Source: Sideroxydans sp.
GTDB taxonomy: Bacteria; Pseudomonadota; Gammaproteobacteria; Burkholderiales; Gallionellaceae
Direction of reading: 5' to 3'
DNA length: 64,000 nt
Assembly: GCA_028707175.1 (NCBI GenBank)
Contig: JAQTUV010000004.1
Location: 310,001-374,000, forward strand
Every line of letters starts with the position of its first letter. Position 1 is the first letter of the stretch. Below the pieces are notes generated by a model that saw only the letters and a list, made by a program, of their open reading frames with translations, was not told where the DNA came from and made no database searches. Both the position numbers and the translations under genes were made by a program. This document shows, piece by piece, positions 5,173 to 10,176 of the stretch.

Positions 5173-5686
5173 TTAGGCGCCGAGGATACCCTTACCTGCA
5201 ACTTTTTTCGCTGCTGGCTTTTTCGCTGCCGGTTTTTTGGCGGCTACTTTTTTAACTGCGGGCTTCTTCGCTGCTACAGCTTTTTTCGCTACTGGCTTCT
5301 TAGCTGCAACTGCTTTCTTAACTACTGGCTTTTTCGCTGCTACAGCTTTTTTCGCTACTGGTTTCTTAGCTGCAACTGCTTTCTTAACTGCTGGCTTTTT
5401 CGCTGCTACAGCTTTTTTCGCTACTGGCTTCTTAGCTGCAACTGCTTTCTTAACTGCTGGCTTTTTCGCTGCTACAGCTTTTTTCGCTACTGGCTTCTTA
5501 GCTGCAACTGCTTTCTTAACTGCTGGCTTTTTTCGCTACTGGCTTCTTAGCTGCAACTGCTTTCTTAACTGCTGGCTTTTTCGCTGCTACAGCTTTTTTC
5601 GCTACTGGCTTTTTTGCTGCTACAGCTTTCTTCGCCGCCGGCTTTTTGGTTGTGGTGCTTTTTGCTTTGGTATCTGCAGTTGCCAT
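5173..5686 (-). pseudogene. histone H1-like Ala/Lys/Pro repeat protein, frame disrupted
   Basis: Reading from the ATG at 5686, the product starts MATADTKAKSTTTKKPAAKK and continues in repeats of the type AVAAKKPVAKK, like the C-terminal tails of bacterial H1-like nucleoid proteins (AlgP and Bordetella BpH1 families) that bind DNA nonspecifically. The frame stops at 5516-5518 after 56 residues. The same repeat continues in the neighbouring frame from about 5526 to a TAA at 5173-5175, ending KVAGKGILGA. The break lies where one 42-base repeat is 17 bases shorter than its sisters, leaving six T at 5528-5533; with five T the whole gene would be one 170-residue frame. It is either a homopolymer or assembly error in a repeat, or a real slippage mutation. 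The plus-strand open frame here is an antisense shadow. Confidence 0.75.
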
Positions 5687-5859: not shown

Positions 5860-7107
5860 TCACGCAATGATTTTCTCTGCTGCAAACAACTGACTCACTA
5901 GCTCTCGCTCACGAATCACATGAATCGCTACGCCATCCACCATGATTTCTGCAGCACGAGGACGCGTGTTGTAGTTAGAACTCATGCTCATTCCGTAAGC
6001 ACCTGCGGACATTACACCTAGCGTATCGCCTTGTGTCACGGCCAGCTCACGGCCACGACCAATAAAATCACCTGTCTCACAAATAGGGCCGACGATGTCG
6101 TAATGCTGAGCAGCTTCATCACGTTCTCTCAACGGCAAAATTGCGTGATAGGCATCGTAAAGTGCGGGGCGCATCAAATCATTCATCGCCGCATCCACAA
6201 TGGCAAAGTTTTTTTCTTCGCCATGTTTGATGTATTCAATACGCGTCAACAAAACGCCCGCATTGCCAACCAACACTCGGCCAGGCTCAACAATCAATTT
6301 ATGCGGACGTCCCTCCAAAGCATTCAACAGTGATTGAGCATAATCGGCAATCGCAGGAGGTGTCTCATCGTCATAACGAATTCCCAAACCGCCCCCGAGA
6401 TCAAGGTGCTCCAAAACAATCCCTGCCGCTTCCAATTGATCCACTAATGCCAGCACCTTTTCTGCTGCCGCGATGAATGGGCTGGTTTCTGTAAGTTGCG
6501 AGCCGATATGACAATCCATGCCGGTGATACGAATGTGTGGCATAGCAGCGGCTTTTCGATAGATAGAAAGAGCCTCTGTGTAAGCCACGCCAAATTTATT
6601 TTGTTTGAGTCCGGTTGAGATGTACGGGTGCGTCTTCGCATCAACATCTGGATTCACGCGCAAACTAATGGGAGCGACTTTCCCCATGCTTGCCGCGACT
6701 GAATTCAAACGATCCAATTCGGGGGCAGATTCCACATTGAAACAAAGAATCCCCGCCTCAAGTGCCATCCTCATTTCTTCTTCTGTCTTGCCTACCCCAG
6801 AGAACACCACCTTGTTGGCTTGTCCTCCTGCCGCCAGCACGCGTTGCAATTCGCCCCCCGATACGATATCGAAGCCTGCGCCCAATCTGGCAAACACATT
6901 CAATATCGCCAAGTTTGAGTTCGCCTTAACCGCATAACAAATGAGGTGTTCACGACCTTTCAGTGCATCGGCAAACTGACGATAGCCATCAGTCAATGCG
7001 GCACGTGAATAGACATAACAAGGAGTGCCATAGCGTTGCGCAATCGACTCTAAGGGAACGCTTTCAACATAAAGTTGTGCTTGCTGATATTTAAAGTATT
7101 CGGTCAT
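5860..7107 (-). CDS. lysA: diaminopimelate decarboxylase
   Basis: A 415-residue PLP enzyme converting meso-diaminopimelate to L-lysine, the last lysine step. It is a fold-III decarboxylase: the Schiff-base lysine lies in CYAVKANSN near residue 60, followed by the glycine-rich phosphate-binding HLDLGGGLGIRY and EPGRVLVGNAG. The active-site cysteine motif GPICETGDF is near 340. The start at 7107 lies two bases beyond the lptM stop, and lptM-lysA with cyaY divergent is the standard betaproteobacterial order. Confidence 0.96.
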   Translation of the reverse strand: MTEYFKYQQAQLYVESVPLESIAQRYGTPCYVYSRAALTDGYRQFADALKGREHLICYAVKANSNLAILNVFARLGAGFDIVSGGELQRVLAAGGQANKVVFSGVGKTEEEMRMALEAGILCFNVESAPELDRLNSVAASMGKVAPISLRVNPDVDAKTHPYISTGLKQNKFGVAYTEALSIYRKAAAMPHIRITGMDCHIGSQLTETSPFIAAAEKVLALVDQLEAAGIVLEHLDLGGGLGIRYDDETPPAIADYAQSLLNALEGRPHKLIVEPGRVLVGNAGVLLTRIEYIKHGEEKNFAIVDAAMNDLMRPALYDAYHAILPLRERDEAAQHYDIVGPICETGDFIGRGRELAVTQGDTLGVMSAGAYGMSMSSNYNTRPRAAEIMVDGVAIHVIRERELVSQLFAAEKIIA

Positions 7108-7109
7108 GG

Positions 7110-7241
7110 TTAAGTGTGTAGCGTAATTTGAAGTGAGGATTGAGATTTAGTGTCGGCATGCTTAGGCAAAAATAAAGGGCCTTTGCGTCCGCAACCTTGC
7201 AGGATGAGTGCCAACAACAACATAATGACTAGGGTACGCAT
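7110..7241 (-). CDS. lptM: LPS translocon maturation chaperone LptM (YifL-type small lipoprotein)
   Basis: A 43-residue lipoprotein. The ATG at 7241 gives MRTLVIMLLLALILQGCGRKGPLFLP, a signal peptide with lipobox LQGC and then the family hallmark CGxKGPL(F/Y)LP. Longer upstream readings add an unlikely 43-residue leader. In Enterobacteria LptM (formerly YifL) assists oxidative maturation of the LptD/E translocon. It is divergent from the frataxin-like gene, with only 39 bases between starts, and probably co-transcribed with lysA. Confidence 0.88.
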   Translation of the reverse strand: MRTLVIMLLLALILQGCGRKGPLFLPKHADTKSQSSLQITLHT

Positions 7242-7280: not shown

Positions 7281-8609
7281 ATGACGGAAAACACACACAA
7301 CGAATTGGCCGGCAACTTGTTTGCACGCATTCAGCACATCGTAAACAAACGAGGTGTGGATATTCAGCAAAATTTAAAGGGACATGCACTCCACCTCGTT
7401 TTCGCGGATGGACAGCGTATTCTCATCAATGTCGATCCGAGTAATAACAATGTGTGGCTCGCCACACGCAACGGCGGAATAGAGTTTTTTCTGCAGGGCG
7501 GAGAATGGCGTACAACAGATAAGACCGAACTGTTGGCACACTTAGAAAACACCATCGAACTCACTATTCATAGCCACCCTCTCAACACACGTACGCCAGA
7601 CCAAGTCATCAAACCAGTCGTAGCGCAGGCGCACATCGAGACTGCGCCCACGCCAACGTCACATTGGCTACGGAATTCATTGGTTGTTGTGTTGGCGGGA
7701 CTGATTGGATTTTGGGGCGCGCTGAGGCTACTACAGCCTCAAGATAGACAATCCATTCAAACGCAATCGCAAGTACCCTCACAGACACTATCGCAATCCC
7801 AAACCAACACGCCCAGCCAGTGCGAAAGTGCCTTCCCTGAAAATGGCAAAATTAGCCTTTTCCCTGATTCATCATTGCATACCGACATAGCTGGTGATCC
7901 TGAAATTACCCTCAATAATAATCATGCACACCCGCTACTTTTGATTATCGCCACACCCAACACACTCAAGCCACTTGCCTCTGTGATGCTTCATGCCCGT
8001 CAGAGCTCACACTTACATCTACCCATTGGGCAATACGATATTTTGTTTTCCAGCGGAACAACATGGTGCAATGCATACGATGGATTTGCAGGTGGCAATA
8101 TGCTCAAGTTCAACCAAGCGATCATCGTACAAGCTGGTAAGCCCATGCAATTGGCTATGCAATCTTCGGGAGCGAGTACGTATGACTTTCAACTGTTCGT
8201 CAAAACGATCGAACCGCAAGAGGCTACTCCACCACCGCCCACGTTCACTGGCGACGGTAGTATGGAAGTTCAACGTCATGCGAATGGACACTTCTACCTA
8301 CCGGGTACGATTGCCAATGCACCCGTTACGTTCATGGTAGATACGGGTGCGTCGATCACTACCGTCTCTAGCGACATTGCCAGACAAGCTGGGGTTCACA
8401 ATTGCAAAGAGGTGCAATTCCAAACGGCGAATGGAACTGCCATCGGATGTGTCGCTCTCGTGCCCAAAATGACCATCGGTAATTTCTCACTTGAAAACAT
8501 CACCATCGCGGTATTGCCCAATTTAGAAACCAATCTGTTGGGAGCCAATGTATTACGCAACTTTCAAGTCAGTCAAAGCGATAGCATGATGTTGCTAGGA
8601 CGCAAATAA
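7281..8609 (+). CDS. frataxin-like domain fused to a membrane-anchored retropepsin-like aspartic protease
   Basis: A 442-residue protein from the ATG at 7281 (an alternative ATG lies at 7248). Residues about 8-95 align by eye with the CyaY encoded next door: LAGNLFARIQ at the start, then NNVWLATRNGGIEFFLQGGEW matching EIWLAAKSGGFHYAIQAGRW. A linker leads to one membrane helix (about 130-152). Next comes a Ser/Gln/Thr-rich stretch (about 155-180), an unassigned beta-rich region (about 181-330) and a C-terminal clan AA protease domain (about 335-442) with the catalytic motif MVDTGAS (Asp354) and the later LLGANVLRNF block. All four cysteines (181, 263, 375, 390) lie after the helix, consistent with a cytoplasmic frataxin domain and a periplasmic, disulfide-containing protease. 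It heads a run with cyaY and a BCS1-like ATPase. The fusion is seen in the sequence; the function is unknown. Confidence 0.85.
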   Translation: MTENTHNELAGNLFARIQHIVNKRGVDIQQNLKGHALHLVFADGQRILINVDPSNNNVWLATRNGGIEFFLQGGEWRTTDKTELLAHLENTIELTIHSHPLNTRTPDQVIKPVVAQAHIETAPTPTSHWLRNSLVVVLAGLIGFWGALRLLQPQDRQSIQTQSQVPSQTLSQSQTNTPSQCESAFPENGKISLFPDSSLHTDIAGDPEITLNNNHAHPLLLIIATPNTLKPLASVMLHARQSSHLHLPIGQYDILFSSGTTWCNAYDGFAGGNMLKFNQAIIVQAGKPMQLAMQSSGASTYDFQLFVKTIEPQEATPPPPTFTGDGSMEVQRHANGHFYLPGTIANAPVTFMVDTGASITTVSSDIARQAGVHNCKEVQFQTANGTAIGCVALVPKMTIGNFSLENITIAVLPNLETNLLGANVLRNFQVSQSDSMMLLGRK

Positions 8610-8622
8610 CCACGGACATACC

Positions 8623-8934
8623 ATGATAGAAAATGAATTCAACAGCGCAGCAGACCAAGTCTTTCAACGCATCGAATCTGCCCTCGACAACGCGGAAGAA
8701 GATATTGATTACGACAACAATGGGGTCGTGATGGAGATCGAATTCGAGAATGGCAACAAGATCATCGTGAATCGCCATCAACCTAATCAAGAGATTTGGT
8801 TAGCTGCAAAATCAGGTGGATTCCATTACGCGATTCAGGCAGGTCGCTGGATCAGTCAACGCGACGCGAGCGAACTGTTCTCGAAGCTCAGCAACTTGTT
8901 CCTCGAACAAGGTGTCTCGATTCAATTCGACTAG
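8623..8934 (+). CDS. cyaY: frataxin-like iron-binding protein CyaY
   Basis: A 103-residue bacterial frataxin, full length for the family. In E. coli CyaY binds iron and IscS and modulates Fe-S cluster assembly. The acidic ridge of helix 1 is intact (NAEEDIDYDN near 24-33), followed by the beta-sheet segments MEIEFENGNKIIVNRHQPNQ and EIWLAAKSGGFHYAIQAG. It starts 13 bases after the frataxin-protease gene and is followed nine bases later by the BCS1-like ATPase, so the three are probably one transcript. It is the canonical copy of a tandem frataxin pair. Confidence 0.95.
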   Translation: MIENEFNSAADQVFQRIESALDNAEEDIDYDNNGVVMEIEFENGNKIIVNRHQPNQEIWLAAKSGGFHYAIQAGRWISQRDASELFSKLSNLFLEQGVSIQFD

Positions 8935-8943
8935 GAGCAGACC

Positions 8944-10176
8944 ATGTTCGATGCGCTATGGAATCTGATCCAAGCCCAATCCAATAACCAGCTTTTTGTC
9001 GGCGGATTCGTACTGGGATTGATGGGGCTACTCGCCGCTTGGTTACGTAAAGTGCCGGGCATGTTGTGGTCTTATTTCAATCGAGTCTTTATCGTGACCG
9101 CCGTCATCGATAGTCGTAACGATCTATTCAGTGCGCTCATCACTTGGCTCAACGACCTGCCGTTTGGTAGAACGAGTCGCTTCTTCACTGTCATCCAAGA
9201 AAACGCCGATCCAGATGACGAAAGCAGCGCTAACGGCTTGCCGCAATTACTCTACAGCCCTGCACCAGGCTTCCATATTTTTTGGTTTCAAGGCCACCTC
9301 ATGTGGATCGAACGCGAGGTGAATATGAATCTGCAAGTCGTCGACACTTTGCGCATCCATGTATTGTTTGGTTCGCGTCGCTATCTTGAAACCTTGCTGG
9401 ATGATGTACTCAAACGGACTTATTCACGCCTCGCCAATCACACCCTAATGTTCACTGTCGACAACTGGGCGGAAAGTTGGCGCAAGGCCGATGCACGCCC
9501 ACGACGTGACATTACTTCCGTTGTGCTGGATGGTGAGATTCGCCAGCGCCTACTTGAGGATGTGCGCGGCTTTTTTTCCAAGCGTAGTTGGTATGCGCAG
9601 ATGGGCATCCCCTGGCGTAGAGGGTATTTACTGTATGGCCCACCCGGAACAGGTAAGACCAGCATGGCGTTCGCGCTCGCAGGCGAGTTGCATCTAAACC
9701 TCTGCTGGCTATCGCTCACCAACCCCAAGTTGAATGATCAAACGATTGCGATGTTGTTACAAAAGACACCTGCACGTTCACTGATACTGATCGAAGATGT
9801 AGATGCGTTCTTTGCCGCACGCCAAAAACAAGATGAGCGGATCGCAGTGAGTTTTAGCGGTTTACTCAACGCATTGGATGGCGTGGCTGCACAAGAAGGG
9901 CGCATCATCTTCCTCACTACGAATCACCGCGAGATACTGGATCCAGCTCTCATCCGCCCAGGTCGCATCGATGTGGAATTCAAGCTAGACCTCGCTTCTC
10001 GTGAGCAAGTCGCCACCATGTTATTGCGCTTCCATCCTGGAAAAGAAAAAGAGATCGATATCTTGACTGCCGAACTGCCTGAGCGCTTCTTCAGTCCCGC
10101 ACAGATTCAACAAGCCTTACTATCGCAACCTGAGTTTGAAGCCGTTTCTGCTTCACTTCGAGCGCAATCCAAATAA
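8944..10176 (+). CDS. BCS1-like membrane-anchored AAA ATPase
   Basis: A 410-residue AAA protein resembling mitochondrial Bcs1, which translocates the folded Rieske Fe-S protein. There is one N-terminal membrane segment (about 17-35), then a BCS1_N-like region (about 40-200), then the AAA module. Bcs1-type signatures are GIPWRRGYLLYGPPGTGKTS with Walker A at about 232-239, Walker B LILIEDVDAFF at about 280-290, and the second region of homology TTNHREILDPALIRPGRID, including two arginine-finger candidates. A good ribosome site (AGGAG) precedes the ATG at 8944. By analogy the N-terminus faces the periplasm and the ATPase the cytoplasm. The client is unknown; the neighbouring frataxins make an Fe-S protein an attractive inference. 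Confidence 0.88.
   Translation: MFDALWNLIQAQSNNQLFVGGFVLGLMGLLAAWLRKVPGMLWSYFNRVFIVTAVIDSRNDLFSALITWLNDLPFGRTSRFFTVIQENADPDDESSANGLPQLLYSPAPGFHIFWFQGHLMWIEREVNMNLQVVDTLRIHVLFGSRRYLETLLDDVLKRTYSRLANHTLMFTVDNWAESWRKADARPRRDITSVVLDGEIRQRLLEDVRGFFSKRSWYAQMGIPWRRGYLLYGPPGTGKTSMAFALAGELHLNLCWLSLTNPKLNDQTIAMLLQKTPARSLILIEDVDAFFAARQKQDERIAVSFSGLLNALDGVAAQEGRIIFLTTNHREILDPALIRPGRIDVEFKLDLASREQVATMLLRFHPGKEKEIDILTAELPERFFSPAQIQQALLSQPEFEAVSASLRAQSK

Follow-up and report, generated by a model that had tools for sequence, protein, structure and literature searches.

Frataxin is a small, free, iron-handling protein, and the retropepsin-like protease APRc (RC1339) of Rickettsia conorii is not known to have a frataxin domain. 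The solved chains of APRc (5c9b, 5c9d, and 5c9f) comprise the protease only, and its expression in Escherichia coli leads to accumulation in the outer membrane (PMC4140852). The same paper names PerP as a bacterial retroviral-type protease; because a Caulobacter control genome scores above the cut-off of the TIGR02281 profile, we infer that PerP of Caulobacter belongs to that family. PMC12239564 describes periplasmic retropepsins, among them RloA of Pseudomonas, as homodimers whose disulfide is conserved in periplasmic but not in cytosolic orthologues. RloA would resemble the protein described here in forming periplasmic dimers with a conserved disulfide but differs in having signal peptides and in the placement of its disulfide, which connects the C-terminal tail with the strand that follows the flap. 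SpoIIGA of Bacillus subtilis, a signal-transducing membrane aspartic protease in PMC13174948, at most works alike: it has five membrane helices and cleaves pro-sigma-E, whereas our protein has one predicted helix and a predicted periplasmic protease. On the frataxin side, PMC6205161 and PMC8199681 place binding of iron and the desulfurase complex on the α1–β1 acidic ridge of human frataxin and binding of the scaffold protein on its sheet. CyaY of E. coli has overlapping surfaces for iron and for IscS (PMC5801593).

We analyzed a 64,000-nucleotide stretch of DNA (the window) from Sideroxydans, a genus placed in the Gallionellaceae, order Nitrosomonadales. One gene of the window unites a frataxin domain with a membrane helix, a β-sandwich, and a retropepsin-like protease (Table 1). 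Its product scores 37.4 bits with the frataxin profile PF01491 (curated cut-off 21.3), 55.0 with TIGR03421 (just over the cut-off of 53.25), and 71.2 with TIGR02281 (cut-off 57.95), and it shares the DTG of the TIGR02281 clan AA proteases. The predicted structure matches CyaY in its alpha-beta sandwich fold and APRc in its retropepsin fold, and it contains one membrane helix; when the first 260 residues are scanned, the most hydrophobic 19-residue segment starts at positions 125–133 in every fusion. A sequence-only reading had proposed a frataxin fold at the N terminus, a retropepsin-like protease at the C terminus, and one membrane helix between them. Profile searches and structure prediction both return frataxin, and a non-frataxin alternative was not borne out; the protease assignment is upheld by the predicted fold, the TIGR02281 score, and the DTG at Asp354, and the helix by the model, the homologues, and the conserved hydrophobic segment. 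The same reading held the architecture to be undescribed, which agrees with our search of mostly open-access papers, some of them on Gallionellaceae, in which no account of a frataxin–retropepsin fusion was found.

Table 1. Features of the fusion gene and its neighbors in the window (names marked "presumably" are our assumption).
Feature	Coordinates	Strand	Remarks
Decarboxylase, presumably LysA-type	5860..7107	-	PF02784 243.4 bits; flanking marker of the site
Small lipoprotein, presumably LptM-like	7110..7241	-	divergent neighbor, marks the insertion site
Frataxin–membrane helix–sandwich–retropepsin fusion gene	7281..8609	+	442 aa, one ORF
Frataxin-fold domain, residues 1-98	7281..7574	+	acidic ridge mostly lost
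Linker, residues 99-128	7575..7664	+	weakly conserved; low pLDDT at 109-124
Single membrane helix, residues 129-151	7665..7733	+	helix in predicted model; hydrophobic segment in every fusion
Ser/Gln/Thr-rich linker, residues 152-180	7734..7820	+	low pLDDT at 152-164 and 171-178
Ig/transthyretin-like beta-sandwich, residues 181-315	7821..8225	+	without a sequence family
Sandwich cysteines C181 and C263	7821-7823 and 8067-8069	+	
Retropepsin-like protease domain, residues 324-442	8250..8606	+	TIGR02281/APRc-like
Catalytic Asp354-Thr-Gly (DTG)	8340..8348	+	
Predicted flap hairpin	8403..8450	+	C375 at 8403-8405, C390 at 8448-8450; probable disulfide
L419-L420-G421	8535..8543	+	hydrophobic-hydrophobic-Gly motif of clan AA
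Ordinary CyaY	8623..8934	+	13 bp downstream of the fusion; PF01491 94.5 bits, TIGR03421 111.2
BCS1-like AAA ATPase	8944..10176	+	BCS1_N 93.6 bits; 9 bp after cyaY

A profile built from 18 fusions was searched against 158 Gallionellaceae genomes and found the full-length fusion in 29, the window's genome included. Bearers, freshwater bacteria related to iron oxidizers, fall in 2 of the 15 genera, namely 26 of 34 genomes of the Sideroxydans-type genus of the window and three (G161, G163, and G169) of the genus that contains Ca. Nitrotoga; the other 13 genera show none. Three genomes (G001, G018, and G024) have only C-terminal pieces of the fusion, at contig ends, and in G008, G010, and G029, which are 63–73% complete, no fusion was detected; in G002 (53% complete) and G012 (80% complete), both of the window's genus, the LysA–lipoprotein–CyaY site is present and the fusion absent. 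By organism name, 23 loci with full-length matches are divided among Sideroxydans (10), Sideroxyarcus (1), Gallionellaceae (3), Ca. Nitrotoga (1), Nitrosomonadales (3), Gammaproteobacteria (4), and Proteobacteria (1); we derive the label Sideroxydans-type from these names. An order-wide sample of 399 genomes yielded the fusion only in the window's genus (four genomes), and in a phylum-wide sample of 398, where 104 genomes have frataxin at E 1e-6, a second, fused copy occurred only in two genomes of that genus.

The 28 other fusions are 40–62% identical to the window's protein. Among the 14 closest pairs, one of which has an altered DTG, dN/dS obtained by a simple counting method over few sites was 0.07–0.22 for the frataxin part, 0.08–0.27 for the sandwich, and 0.03–0.26 for the protease, compared with 0–0.85 for the membrane helix, 0.18–1.07 for the first linker, and 0.19–2.4 for the second; CyaY, in 11 of these pairs, gave 0.04–0.20. 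These ratios indicate purifying selection on the folded domains. The chance that two genes were wrongly joined in assembly or annotation is negligible, since the full-length fusion recurs as an uninterrupted reading frame in 29 genomes, at the divergence given above, under purifying selection, and linked to cyaY. We therefore discard this artifact: the fusion is real, conserved, and, as far as searched, undescribed.

In the loci read from the window's genus, the fusion sits between the LysA–lipoprotein pair and cyaY. Of 23 loci measured, 22 have 8–15 bp between its stop codon and the cyaY start, and the remaining one (L055) has 105 bp; the gaps in two more loci, L012 and L024, are 13 and 14 bp long. 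Nine loci of other genera have cyaY directly after the LysA–lipoprotein pair (the lipoprotein being unmatched in L131). G163 of the Nitrotoga-type genus has the fusion at the LysA–lipoprotein–cyaY site with one gene intervening before cyaY (locus L130, 1502-2926, minus strand), which encodes an exported-looking protein of 474 aa. The operon linkage is not universal because in G161 and G169 neither LysA nor cyaY lies within the 4.5–12.5 kb read around the fusion. The BCS1-like ATPase gene follows cyaY in only 3 of 23 loci (the window, L038, and L042), although some loci end soon after cyaY, and it probably stands outside the fusion/cyaY system. Mitochondrial BCS1 moves the Rieske Fe-S protein; the protein in the window has, by eye, a hydrophobic N-terminal segment and matches IetA weakly in PADLOC (54.1 bits). 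Upstream, at 5204-5647, lies a tandem array in which a 66-bp unit recurs at 5247-5537 (96% matches); its minus strand would, by eye, encode a Lys/Ala/Pro-rich, histone-H1-like protein. The window's genome has an iscS-iscU-iscA-hscB-like cluster (IscU identified by PF01592, the other genes named by eye).

The fused frataxin shares with CyaY its fold, core, Asn50, and Trp59 but differs in being joined to a predicted membrane anchor, in lacking most of the acidic ridge, and in having another sequence in place of the NRH motif. Counting residues in 35 CyaYs and 29 distinct fusions, we found that the ridge on helix 1 and strand 1, the iron- and desulfurase-binding feature of CyaY, is mostly missing from the fusions: position E18 is acidic in 34 CyaYs versus 4 fusions, D22 in 35 versus 7, D/E29 in 35 versus 1, D31 in 25 versus 2, and E38 in 35 versus 0. 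E57, also of the iron/desulfurase surface, is acidic in 35 versus 1. Two acidic positions are better kept, D27 (32/35 versus 25/29) and E40 (35/35 versus 19/29). Net charge of the frataxin part is −2 to −7 in 25 fusions versus −5 to −15 in the 35 CyaYs. Four residues common to all the CyaYs (R51, H52, H68, and R80) are replaced in every fusion, and residues particular to the fusions stand at three positions (Q45 and E68 in 29/29, D52 in 26/29). F41, W59, A61, and W76 are retained throughout, and N50 in 28/29.

We take the sheet columns to correspond to human N146, Q148, W155, and R165, a mapping of our own in which Asn50 and Trp59 are N146 and W155. On this assumption, the scaffold-facing sheet keeps Asn50 and Trp59 almost throughout, with positions 52 and 68 changed in all fusions. 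Human N146 and W155 contact the desulfurase–scaffold complex (PMC8199681). Since, in the sources cited above, iron and the desulfurase complex bind the acidic ridge of human frataxin and the iron and IscS surfaces of E. coli CyaY overlap, weaker binding of iron and IscS is expected of this domain, and a partner may bind through the kept Asn/Trp face of the sheet. A working iron-binding frataxin was considered and rejected, with most of the acidic iron/desulfurase surface gone and fusion-specific invariant residues gained. Because most iron-holding features are lost, the frataxin part probably steers or docks the protease rather than handling iron.

Relatives of the fusion that lack the frataxin part suggest how it arose. 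In the 399-genome order sample, matches at E 1e-30 without frataxin occur in five genomes, four from a single other family and the fifth from yet another; the match in G407 covers only the stretch from residue 197 on. Among the named loci, two Nitrosomonas (L056 and L057) are relatives of this kind and have helix, sandwich, and protease, and no match there outside Gallionellaceae-type loci spans the frataxin part. The three relatives that were read keep these three parts and all four cysteines, but their N-terminal tails are short and basic, and in the stretches read they are not at a cyaY site. A frataxin gene was found at E 0.001 in none of the five sampled genomes (G051, G336, G424, G480, and G407). 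A helix–sandwich–protease protein in genomes without a frataxin match points to the frataxin part as an added CyaY duplicate, and the simplest history would be that a Nitrosomonas-like membrane protease gained a cyaY duplicate as a new cytosolic domain. A tree of 92 rows (29 fusions, 35 Gallionellaceae CyaYs, and 28 others) groups the fusion frataxins in a single clade (support 100/99). This clade joins the CyaYs of other Gallionellaceae genera by a long branch whose exact place is unsure. G163 is sister to the remaining fusions, and the other two Nitrotoga-type rows are nested next to L038 and L043, which makes transfer of the fusion gene between the Sideroxydans-type and Nitrotoga-type genera possible.

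Within the fusions, the charges on either side of the membrane helix do not discriminate between the two orientations. The frataxin-less relatives are more informative, with 9, 8, and 6 Lys/Arg versus 5, 4, and 3 Asp/Glu in the three N-terminal tails and few charges just after the helix. These basic tails, and the position of all four conserved cysteines after the helix, favor an N-in, C-out (type II) orientation in the inner membrane. C375 and C390 are present together in 29/29 fusions, compared with only 6 of 54 standalone TIGR02281 proteases parsed from 55 loci, in which the flap cysteines occur both or not at all; a C375–C390 flap disulfide is probable from this pattern. The same pair occurs in the standalone clan AA proteases L058-L063, L065, and L067; copies from Aromatoleum (one of them plasmid-borne), Ralstonia, and Pigmentiphaga are near-identical, which suggests a mobile element.

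The reading we prefer, with a probability of about one-half, is that of a type II inner-membrane protease of the TIGR02281/APRc kind in which frataxin has been neofunctionalized into a cytosolic docking or regulatory tail. That the duplicate is instead a passive soluble cap, captured at the insertion site as a mere stable N terminus or translation start for an ordinary membrane retropepsin, is doubtful but a serious contender. Such a cap is consistent with the frataxin-less form in genomes lacking a frataxin match (0/5), in which the protease module evidently does not need frataxin, but the surface of such a cap would be expected to drift more than that of a domain that has invariant residues of its own and is mostly under stronger selection than the linkers. 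Alternatively, the protein could be mainly a binding scaffold that can do without proteolysis, some lineages having lost it. The DTG is intact in 26 of the 29 fusions (L135 read by eye); the three exceptions lack its glycine and keep the remaining protein, reading DTDS in L050 (G022) and L024 (G004) and DPDT in L021 (G028). Their protease domains still show dN/dS of 0.18–0.32, and each of these genomes carries a separate TIGR02281 protease over the cut-off. Proteolysis is thus not essential everywhere, but the three group in the tree (89/83) and may reflect one loss, and with protease dN/dS as low as 0.03 elsewhere, we regard a general scaffold role as very unlikely.

The sequence-only reading had gone further, to a cytosolic frataxin domain that senses iron or the state of Fe-S assembly and alters proteolysis in the periplasm. 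The place of the fusion just ahead of cyaY in all 23 loci measured within the genus, the ISC-type genes, the retained Asn50 and Trp59 with their human counterparts, and the precedent of SpoIIGA all speak for sensing, which is nevertheless unlikely given the erasure of most of the iron/desulfurase ridge. The proposed coupling is unsupported, and the protease module also occurs without frataxin, in genomes without a detected frataxin gene. Neither is iron oxidation a likely reason for the fusion, since Ca. Nitrotoga, which has it, is a genus not known to oxidize iron (PMC10734462), and 13 of the 15 genera of the family show none; this distribution also counts against sensing.

Under the docking-tail reading, a CyaY duplicate would have replaced the short cytosolic tail of a membrane protease in an ancestor of the Sideroxydans–Nitrotoga branch. 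By analogy with its family, the periplasmic protease would work as a homodimer with one Asp354 per chain and a flap stiffened by the C375–C390 disulfide, and the sandwich may hold the substrate or the dimer. The frataxin-derived domain, no longer a CyaY-like iron handler, would be a cytosolic docking or oligomerization module, with CyaY (encoded in the same putative operon) or the IscS–IscU complex as first candidate partners through the Asn50/Trp59 sheet. Docking to either, or self-association, would place or gate the protease, a step proposed from conservation. A more specific version, in which the frataxin-derived domain, via CyaY or IscS–IscU, joins or parts two chains and so controls the two-Asp periplasmic active site from the inside, is distinctly unlikely; if true, it would be a reverse-direction counterpart of SpoIIGA linking Fe-S assembly to remodeling of periplasmic proteins.

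Overall, the fusion is a bacterial membrane retropepsin variant with a neofunctionalized frataxin tail, new as far as searched. It is also an annotation trap, passing the curated cut-off of TIGR03421, a model named 'iron donor protein CyaY'. With its iron surface mostly dropped and its fold and sheet kept, it amounts to a natural experiment in which frataxin's two faces are separated. In these relatives of iron oxidizers, it also makes a possible connection between Fe-S assembly and proteolysis in the envelope testable.
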